Assembly: GCA_013334865.1 (NCBI GenBank)
Contig: JAAXWS010000001.1
Span: 95,067-159,066 of the forward strand
Origin: Chlorobiaceae bacterium
GTDB taxonomy: Bacteria; Bacteroidota; Chlorobiia; Chlorobiales; Chlorobiaceae
Direction of reading: 5' to 3'
Length of the DNA stretch: 64,000 nt
Shown here: piece after piece, positions 2,905 to 30,509 of the stretch
Layout: every line of letters starts with the position of its first letter
Numbering within the stretch: position 1 is the stretch's first letter
Translations under genes and position numbers: made by a program
Notes under the pieces: generated by a model
Database searches by the model: none
The model's input: the letters and a program-made list of their open reading frames with translations, nothing else
Told to the model about the DNA's origin: nothing

Positions 2905-2969
2905 CTGGGGTCAGGTCTTGCTTTTTAGCATTTTCCTGGAAAACGCTAAAAAGCAAGACCTGACCCCAG
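2905..2969. repeat. 65-bp near-perfect palindrome (copy 1 of 2)
   Basis: ctggggtcaggtcttgctttttagcattttcc t ggaaaacgctaaaaagcaagacctgaccccag; 32-bp arms with one mismatch. Confidence 0.95.
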
Positions 2970-28533: not shown

Positions 28534-29208
28534 ATGAAAAAATCAGCAAAAATCCTCGCACTTGCCGTTGCGCTCTTCTCTGGCGTCGGCGCCACCGCAG
28601 CTCACGCAGAAGGCTTCAAGACCGGCGTCGACCTCGTCAGCAGCTATGTCTGGAGGGGTTCGGAAGTCGGTGACTCGCCCGCAATCCAGCCGGCTGTCAC
28701 TTACACCTTCGATAACGGCATCGCCATCGGCGGCTGGGGCTCCTATGGCATCAAGGACAACCCTCGCTACAAAGAAGTCGACCTCACCGTAACATTGCCG
28801 GCCGGACCTTTCAGCCTGAGCGCGGTCGATTACTACGTTCCTACAACTACGTCGGCCAGGGCTTTCGACTTCTCGAGCTCCAGCCCGAACATCGTTGAAA
28901 TCGACGTAGCTTATGCCGCTGGCGACCTCAGCCTCCTTGCGGCAATCAACGTTGCTGGCAGCGACACGAAGAACGCCAAATACTTCGAAGCCGGCTACAA
29001 GTTCTACAACGGCAAGGACGGATACAGCGCCAAGGCTGTTGCTGGTTTGGGCAGCAAGTACCTCTACAGTGGCATCACCGATAACGCCGAAACCAAGCTC
29101 GCCCTGGTCAACACCGGCATCTCGGTCGCAAAGGACAGGTACACCGCATCGTACGTGTACAACCCGATCTCCGAGAAATCGAGCCTCGTGTTCATGGCCT
29201 CGTTCTAA
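28534..29208 (+). CDS. TorF-like putative outer-membrane porin
   Basis: MKKSAKILALAVALFSGVGATAAHAEGFKTGVDLVSSYVWRGSEVGDSPAIQPAVTYTF; terminal phenylalanine. Confidence 0.82.
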   Translation: MKKSAKILALAVALFSGVGATAAHAEGFKTGVDLVSSYVWRGSEVGDSPAIQPAVTYTFDNGIAIGGWGSYGIKDNPRYKEVDLTVTLPAGPFSLSAVDYYVPTTTSARAFDFSSSSPNIVEIDVAYAAGDLSLLAAINVAGSDTKNAKYFEAGYKFYNGKDGYSAKAVAGLGSKYLYSGITDNAETKLALVNTGISVAKDRYTASYVYNPISEKSSLVFMASF

Positions 29209-29245: not shown

Positions 29246-29281
29246 AACGAAGAAAGGAGCCCCCGGGCTCCTTTCTTCGTT
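29246..29281 (+). terminator. rho-independent terminator of the porin-like gene
   Basis: aacgaagaaaggagccc cc gggctcctttcttcgtt. Confidence 0.88.
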
Positions 29282-29306: not shown

Positions 29307-29371
29307 CTGGGGTCAGGTCTTGTATTTTAGCATTTCCCGGTGAAATGCTAAAATACAAGACCTGACCCCAG
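29307..29371. repeat. 65-bp perfect palindrome (copy 2 of 2)
   Basis: ctggggtcaggtcttgtattttagcatttc ccggt gaaatgctaaaatacaagacctgaccccag; 30-bp perfect arms. Confidence 0.96.
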
Positions 29372-29375
29372 AGTT

Positions 29376-30509
29376 TCAGATCGGCTTTTCGTAGATCACG
29401 TACTCCTTGTAGGGCTTGCCTCCGATCACGCTCGCCAGTTTGCTCATGGCCTCGTTCGACTTGAGCACCCAGCTCATTTCGCTGGCGAACAGTCCGTGTT
29501 TGCCGCCGTAATCGGCGATATGGGCGTTCATGATGCTATCAATCCCCTTGTTCCGGTACTCGGGCAGCACCCCCATGACGATGGTCCTCGCCATGTTGAT
29601 ATTCCGCTTGTACCAGAGGTACTTGACCAGCCCCCATGGCGTGAAGGGATTGCCGTTGACATGCTTCAACGCCTGGTTGATGTCGGGCAGGGTGAGGGAG
29701 AACCCGATCGTCCGGCCCTGGCTGTCCTCGACGAAATAGATGTAGTGGGGATTGGCGATCGGTTTCAGGCTCCTGGCAAGGTAGTCGAACTCCCTGTCGG
29801 TCATGGGCACGAAGCCCCAGTTCTTCTCCCATGCGCCGTTGTAGATCGTCCGCATCTTTTCCACCTCGCTGTCGAAGCGCTTCATGTCGAGGGTCCTGAT
29901 GGTCAGCCCCTCGCGCCTCATGACGTGGCCAGCGATGCGCCGGAGCCGTTCGATATCGATGCTTTTCTGGTCGATGTACCAGGCCAGCAGCTCCTGTGCG
30001 ACCTGGTGCCCGGCGTTTTTGCACAGGTCGTTGTAGTACGGAGGGTTGTAGAGCATGAGGAACACCGGAGGGCTGTCGTAGCCACGGACGAGCATGCCGC
30101 ACTGATCGTTCATCGAAGGGCTGACCGGGCCGCGCATCGCGTCGAGCCCCTTGCTCTTGAGCCAGAGGGCGGCCGCATCGAAGAGCGCGTCGGCGACCTT
30201 CTGGTCTTCGATGCATTCGAAAAAGCCCCAAAAGCCGACCTTGTCGTTGTGGATCTCGTTATGACGGCTATTCCGGATCGCCGCGATCGTACCGACCATT
30301 TTCTCATCCCGCCAGGCGGTGAACATGGCCAGGTCGGCATGGTCATAGAGCGGATAACTCGAGGTATCCAGGGTCTTCATGTAATCCGAGACCACCGGCG
30401 GCACCCAGTTCCGGTCCAGTTCGGGATCGTTGCGGTAAACCTTCCAGGCGAACCTGATGAACTGTTTGCGTTCGTGCGCCGTCTCGACGCGCTTGATCTG
30501 GATGCTCAT
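29376..30509 (-). CDS. GNAT-like acyltransferase family protein
   Basis: 377 aa; FIRFAWKVYRNDPELDRNWVPP, GPVSPSMNDQCGMLVRGYDSPPVFLM, ARTIVMGVLPEYRNKGIDSIMNAHI. Confidence 0.8.
   Translation of the reverse strand: MSIQIKRVETAHERKQFIRFAWKVYRNDPELDRNWVPPVVSDYMKTLDTSSYPLYDHADLAMFTAWRDEKMVGTIAAIRNSRHNEIHNDKVGFWGFFECIEDQKVADALFDAAALWLKSKGLDAMRGPVSPSMNDQCGMLVRGYDSPPVFLMLYNPPYYNDLCKNAGHQVAQELLAWYIDQKSIDIERLRRIAGHVMRREGLTIRTLDMKRFDSEVEKMRTIYNGAWEKNWGFVPMTDREFDYLARSLKPIANPHYIYFVEDSQGRTIGFSLTLPDINQALKHVNGNPFTPWGLVKYLWYKRNINMARTIVMGVLPEYRNKGIDSIMNAHIADYGGKHGLFASEMSWVLKSNEAMSKLASVIGGKPYKEYVIYEKPI

Follow-up and report, generated by a model that had tools for sequence, protein, structure and literature searches.

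The closest described relatives of the element analysed here are the TIRYTs, or TIRtrons, in which a RAYT-like Y1 transposase gene lies between terminal inverted repeats carrying GGGGWSAS (Di Nocera 2013, PMC3733652). TIRYTs were named in 2013 from a few examples, and in some genomes their terminal inverted repeats are also dispersed as repeated families that are sometimes dimeric or self-complementary. No REP-like sequences were reported near the genes of TnpA-Y1 subclass 2.1 (Quentin 2018, PMC6006769). Cleavage at a CT beside a hairpin is on record for TnpAREP enzymes only (PMC8266576); our literature search found no biochemistry for TIRYTs, and returned no match for the tip sequence described below.

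We analysed a 64,000-nucleotide stretch of a Chlorobiaceae genome, referred to as the window, which contains two copies of a 65-bp palindrome. The features around copy 2, together with copy 1, are as follows.

2905..2969, no strand assigned: palindrome copy 1, stem CTTTTTAGC, one unpaired position
28534..29208, plus strand: upstream gene, 224 aa, small secreted or membrane-type protein, convergent
29246..29281, plus strand: separate GC-rich hairpin past the upstream gene, -18.1 kcal/mol, putative terminator
29307..29371, no strand assigned: palindrome copy 2, 30-bp arms and a 5-nt loop, 14-bp tip GGGGTCAGGTCTTG, flanked by CT/AG
29309..29335, plus strand: left arm of copy 2, identical in sequence to the right-hand one of the 29-bp repeats that end the TIRYT element at G000:C7 (contig C7 of the same genome, G000)
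29343..29369, minus strand: right arm of copy 2, exact reverse complement of the left arm
29376..30509, minus strand: downstream convergent gene, 377 aa, putative GNAT-type acyltransferase, named by reading the sequence and not by family search

As single-stranded DNA, copy 2 (CTGGGGTCAGGTCTTGTATTTTAGCATTT...AAATGCTAAAATACAAGACCTGACCCCAG) forms a hairpin (30-bp stem, 5-nt loop) of -34.9 kcal/mol, compared to -5.1 for shuffled sequences (z -15.9), and its right tip ends about 5-6 bp from the stop codon of the downstream gene. Copy 1 folds at -33.0 kcal/mol and is not a perfect palindrome, because one position inside its upper stem is unpaired. Two stem positions distinguish the copies (CT vs TA), each compensated on the opposite arm, and both copies lie between convergent genes, as an earlier sequence-only reading had stated. 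That reading had also placed an ordinary terminator just before copy 2; the hairpin is there, although it did not pass the consensus terminator scan, and a terminator role is plausible. Four arm matches were found in the window, against 0.22 expected by chance. Two other identities for the palindromes were rejected: ordinary terminators, since there is neither a T-tail nor a match in the terminator scan, and an Rfam RNA, since only sub-threshold hairpin resemblances to microRNA models were obtained. Within the stem (29327-29354), each strand shows a weak sigma-70-like pair (TTAGCA-16-TAAAAT, 9/12), which is probably an effect of symmetry and A/T content.

The window shows two of about 23 palindrome places in the 2.42-Mb genome (44 contigs), 17 of them complete with exact tips; this count comes from sequence searches, which copies with strongly altered tips may escape. 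Several contigs end within palindromes (C3, C4, C14, C32, C33 and C43), pointing to breaks in the assembly and a count that is a little too low. The foot is GGGGTC in all copies, mostly after T or CT, and CT adjoins many of the tips. The distance to a stop codon is 2-15 bp for most copies, and convergent gene pairs are their main setting. The stem occurs in several variants (TATTTTAGC, CATTTTAGC, CTTTTTAGC, CGTTTTAGC and TATTTTGAC), and in each the opposite arm matches, with the exception of one copy (C30c) that mixes two variants at one position. A single stem position is paired in only 0.62 of copies, while the others reach 0.94-1.00, and pairing within copies is 0.974-0.975 in Chlorobiaceae. 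Six copies with identical 26-bp arms carry six different loops. Two relic palindromes of a GGCCTTG type, with stems resembling those of the congener G010, lie at the ends of contigs C43 and C14 (L077 1471-1528 and L076 1957-1998) in a genome that otherwise carries the GGTCTTG type; the C43 relic sits within AAAAAGCCT/AGGCTTTTT, resembling the middle of a terminator stem.

A gene with the same terminal repeats, the partner that the sequence-only reading had proposed to look for, is present in the same genome. One of its Y1 transposase genes, C7:6273-7124, lies between two copies of the arm in an element of ~980 bp, itself one of the palindrome places counted above, with 29-bp terminal inverted repeats (left end GGGGTCAGGTCTTGCATTTTAGCATTT, right end the complement of GGGGTCAGGTCTTGTATTTTAGCATTT). 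Both ends carry GGGGTCAG, which fits GGGGWSAS, as do the TIRYTs of other genomes. The gene is intact and encodes a 284-aa protein of the HUH Y1 type (PF01797, E 1e-10), which scores 75.1 bits against NF047646 (REP_Tyr_transpos), just under the cut-off of 80. Its alignment contains the NH[YF]H, FQ/W[EQ], Y[IV]xLNP and SS motifs of TnpA-Y1 subclass 2.1, and 19 relatives keep the HUH, Tyr and NP residues without exception. The putative C-terminal helix-turn-helix has a sub-threshold Pfam match only, with helices predicted in the region. A sequence search against solved structures gave no match for the protein, and relatives were found by fold search only: the predicted fold (pLDDT 88) is closest in the PDB to 4er8, the E. 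coli REP transposase (TnpAREP) bound to a REP hairpin. In the transposase tree, G006 and G010 group firmly, and G000 and G052 weakly. A second TIRYT of another lineage, cut by the start of contig C22 (L069 1-763), has the same tip and the stem CTTGTATTCATAC; no palindromes with that stem were seen.

Across the 86 family genomes, the palindrome is found in five (G000, G006, G010, G016 and G052) and a full-length TIRYT (>200 bits) in four (G000, G006, G010 and G052). Thus, all four genomes with a full-length TIRYT have the palindrome, compared to 1 of 82 without (Fisher 2e-6, a descriptive value because related species are counted as independent and their kinship is ignored). The one exception, G016, has two palindromes and no full-length TIRYT, explicable as relics.

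We scanned genome contigs for two 14-bp tips 18-40 bp apart, a search that fixes the tips and leaves the inner stems free. At least 116 stretches were found, and palindromes with the same tip occur in at least 12 phyla. Record titles among the matches listed include Peptococcaceae, Nitrospirae, Rokubacteria, Elusimicrobia, Synergistaceae, Acidobacteria, Aminicenantes, Actinobacteria, Omnitrophota, Nitrospinota, Chlorobi and all main proteobacterial classes. Among these listed matches, every inner stem position shows 3-4 Watson-Crick pair types, stem pairing is 0.854 compared to 0.443 with the right arms reshuffled, and 216 compensated double changes stand against 103 unpaired cells. The paired stem changes seen in the window therefore hold both genome-wide and across phyla. 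A TIRYT relative, mostly with GGGGTCAGG ends, is present in 21 of 25 of the cross-phylum palindrome genomes. In all 19 genomes of a cognate test, the TIRYT's repeats match the palindrome stem of their own genome at least as well as that of any other (own-stem match 8.4 vs 4.3 of 9 positions; permutation p<=5e-5, which is optimistic because the repeats were the tips nearest each transposase gene, picked by hand). In the Oxalobacteraceae genome G100 (L390 3651-3767), four right tips form a short array beside a TIRYT, like clustered REPs. At L323 6076-6132, the flanks extend the palindrome 16 bp past the tips to another GGGGTC/GACCCC-like motif, giving a palindrome nested in a palindrome.

No palindrome is present at the copy-2 locus in 18 of 20 congeners; G006 carries one with a different stem at an equal distance to the downstream stop, and G010 retains a shortened remnant. 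A G006 palindrome is present at 7 of 10 tested G000 sites, often within 0-4 bp. Of nine further sites, six are occupied in G006 (C31, with a worn left tip, and C37, C26, C30e, C30d and C36), and G018 and G016 have no palindrome at these six. Comparison of flanking proteins extends the sharing of sites to G010 and partly to G052; on the gene side, most G006 sites and some of those in G010 are offset by 0-4 bp, and the others by more. G013 has tip-like scars (GACCTGGCCCC and GGCCTGGCCCCAG) at C16-1 and C37, both occupied in G000, which suggests older occupancy. The arms at nine shared sites differ at 7.3 of 14 positions between G000 and G006, like any arms of the two genomes. Per 14 positions, arms differ by 1.3-2.8 between sites of one genome, and by 7.3-8.1 between G000 and G006 or G010. 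Arm sequence goes with the genome and not with the site. In G000, G006 and G010, a cation-efflux-type gene common to all three is followed at the identical base pair by the TIRYT itself, which has the reverse orientation in G000; this locus is empty in five of seven tested genomes (G013, G016, G018, G011 and G007). In G052, from another genus, the TIRYT is at the same gene end, 21 bp away.

No target-site duplication was visible at these sites, where the intergenic flanks are too diverged to resolve one and the palindromic tips run into short lineage-specific CT..AG. The flanks contain no target motif beyond CT/AG. Complementarity of the flanks past the tip exceeds that of shuffles across phyla, but not within Chlorobiaceae; we therefore rejected palindromic target sites, and a lineage-specific extension of the tip is more likely. 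Retention of loops at orthologous sites was rejected as proof of common descent, since only one of three cuts gave significance (p 0.19, 0.22 and 0.04). In non-carrier congeners, the same slots hold other hairpin-like repeats, of the GTCCATGACGTCCAT type and the ATCGGTATCG type (L158, L161, L175, L178 and L179; L168 and L173), which suggests that these slots collect different repeat families.

Taken together, we consider it probable (about 0.86) that the palindrome is a non-autonomous mobile element of two TIRYT terminal inverted repeats, moved or recopied by the cognate TIRYT. Its link to the TIRYT as a non-autonomous element is well supported; its mobility, cleavage and copying are what we infer from TnpAREP biochemistry. 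The palindrome would consist of two such repeats joined head to head by a short loop, and the TIRYT would be a transposon whose product, an HUH Y1 tyrosine transposase, carries a helix-turn-helix at its C-terminus. Most likely, the cognate TIRYT of the same genome reads the tip (GGGGTCAGG...) and the stem as a single-stranded hairpin, would cut at the CT dinucleotide beside the tip and would then move or recopy the hairpin. Both arms of a renewed copy would then come from one folded strand, which would keep them complementary. Simple copy-and-paste does not predict differing loops on identical arms. The sequence-only reading had likened the palindrome to REP or MITE elements mobilised in trans. 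This likeness is well supported by the partner transposase with the same repeats, the co-occurrence and the empty sites, and the type is that of TIRYT terminal repeats rather than the GTAG-type REP. Neither of the outcomes that the reading had named as refuting it was seen: stem mutations are correlated and empty sites exist.

Alternatively, the host might maintain the hairpins between convergent genes for their RNA or DNA structure, as two-way terminators or mRNA 3'-end stabilisers, with selection for function rather than copying pairing the arms. The position of most copies within 2-15 bp of stop codons, mainly between convergent genes, fits such a role, as do the other hairpin repeats in the same slots of non-carrier species. 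However, copy 2 comes after another strong hairpin, its stem is not followed by a T-run, no Rfam match exceeds the gathering score and 81 of the 86 family genomes manage without the palindrome. Selection for pairing alone also gives no reason for stems to match the repeats of the local transposase, and does not account for a common arm sequence at distant sites of one genome. We regard a host structure as improbable. Less probable still, and in our view hardly tenable, is that these are old inherited palindromes in which mutation and hairpin-templated correction inside each copy keep the arms alike, with no transposase involved. The near-perfect pairing within Chlorobiaceae copies and the existence of sites common to several genomes agree with inheritance, but it fails to give different sites of one genome the same stem and cannot produce a match to transposase ends. 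As the sole process, within-copy correction is contradicted by the arm differences within and between genomes.

Within the preferred reading of a TIRYT-linked mobile element, occupation of the same sites with genome-specific stems suggests that the transposase either replaces the copies in place or re-inserts them at hot sites. Possibly, although at somewhat less than even odds, TIRYTs renew palindromes in place, so that after a change of transposase long-occupied sites are refitted arm by arm with the new cognate stem; sites would persist and loops would perhaps be remade. The chance is comparable, and similarly tentative, that the element of each genome inserted independently at hot sites common to them all, with neither in-place replacement nor common descent of sites. 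Such insertion would suit the G052 TIRYT, which lies at the same gene end but 21 bp off, and the G000 TIRYT, at the same base pair as those of G006 and G010 but in opposite orientation. Usable slots could also be few, and with 50 slots the sharing is unremarkable; with 200-400 slots, however, the nine sites shared with G006 give p about 1e-7 to 1e-9, and roughly 450 convergent junctions are expected per genome. The flanks, with nothing beyond CT/AG, show no motif to direct insertion, and the G013 scars at two G000-occupied sites suggest older occupancy. The six loops on identical 26-bp arms are explained so far by neither renewal nor hot-site re-insertion. If renewal is true, the transposase would be driving the dispersed hairpins to evolve in concert, and the swap and inversion of the transposase gene at one fixed locus would be part of this process.

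Compared with known systems, the palindrome resembles the GTAG REPs and REPINs with their RAYTs (subclasses 2.2-2.5) in its short intergenic hairpins, its one or few transposase genes, the cognate pairing of hairpin and enzyme and the best fold match, 4er8. Unlike them, it has no GT[AG]G foot in any copy, is a full 61-bp double-tip palindrome rather than a single-foot hairpin and has a copy number of about 20 rather than about 100. Like the MITEs of DDE insertion sequences, it has two terminal repeats and no gene and is presumably mobilised in trans, but it is paired with an HUH Y1 enzyme instead of a DDE transposase, and no target duplication is visible in the diverged flanks. The transposase shares with TnpA-Y1 subclass 2.1 the NHYH, F[QE], Y-x-LNP and SS motifs and a long C-terminal extension with HTH similarity; unlike the situation reported for subclass 2.1 genes in PMC6006769, a dispersed palindrome family borders its gene and has the same ends. 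With the TIRYTs and TIRtrons, it has in common a Y1 gene between GGGGWSAS repeats (GGGGTCAG) and terminal repeats dispersed at about 23 places. Relative to the available part of the 2013 description (PMC3733652), the differences are the Chlorobiaceae instance, the exact 14-bp tip in at least 12 phyla, the fit of the stems to the local transposase and the turnover of stems at shared sites. TIRYT ends here define a cross-phylum palindrome family in which the 14-bp tip is kept and the stem is variable, but paired and matched to the enzyme. This makes many natural palindrome-TIRYT pairs available for asking how HUH transposases read hairpins, and the pattern of same sites with different stems makes in-place renewal of bacterial repeats directly testable.
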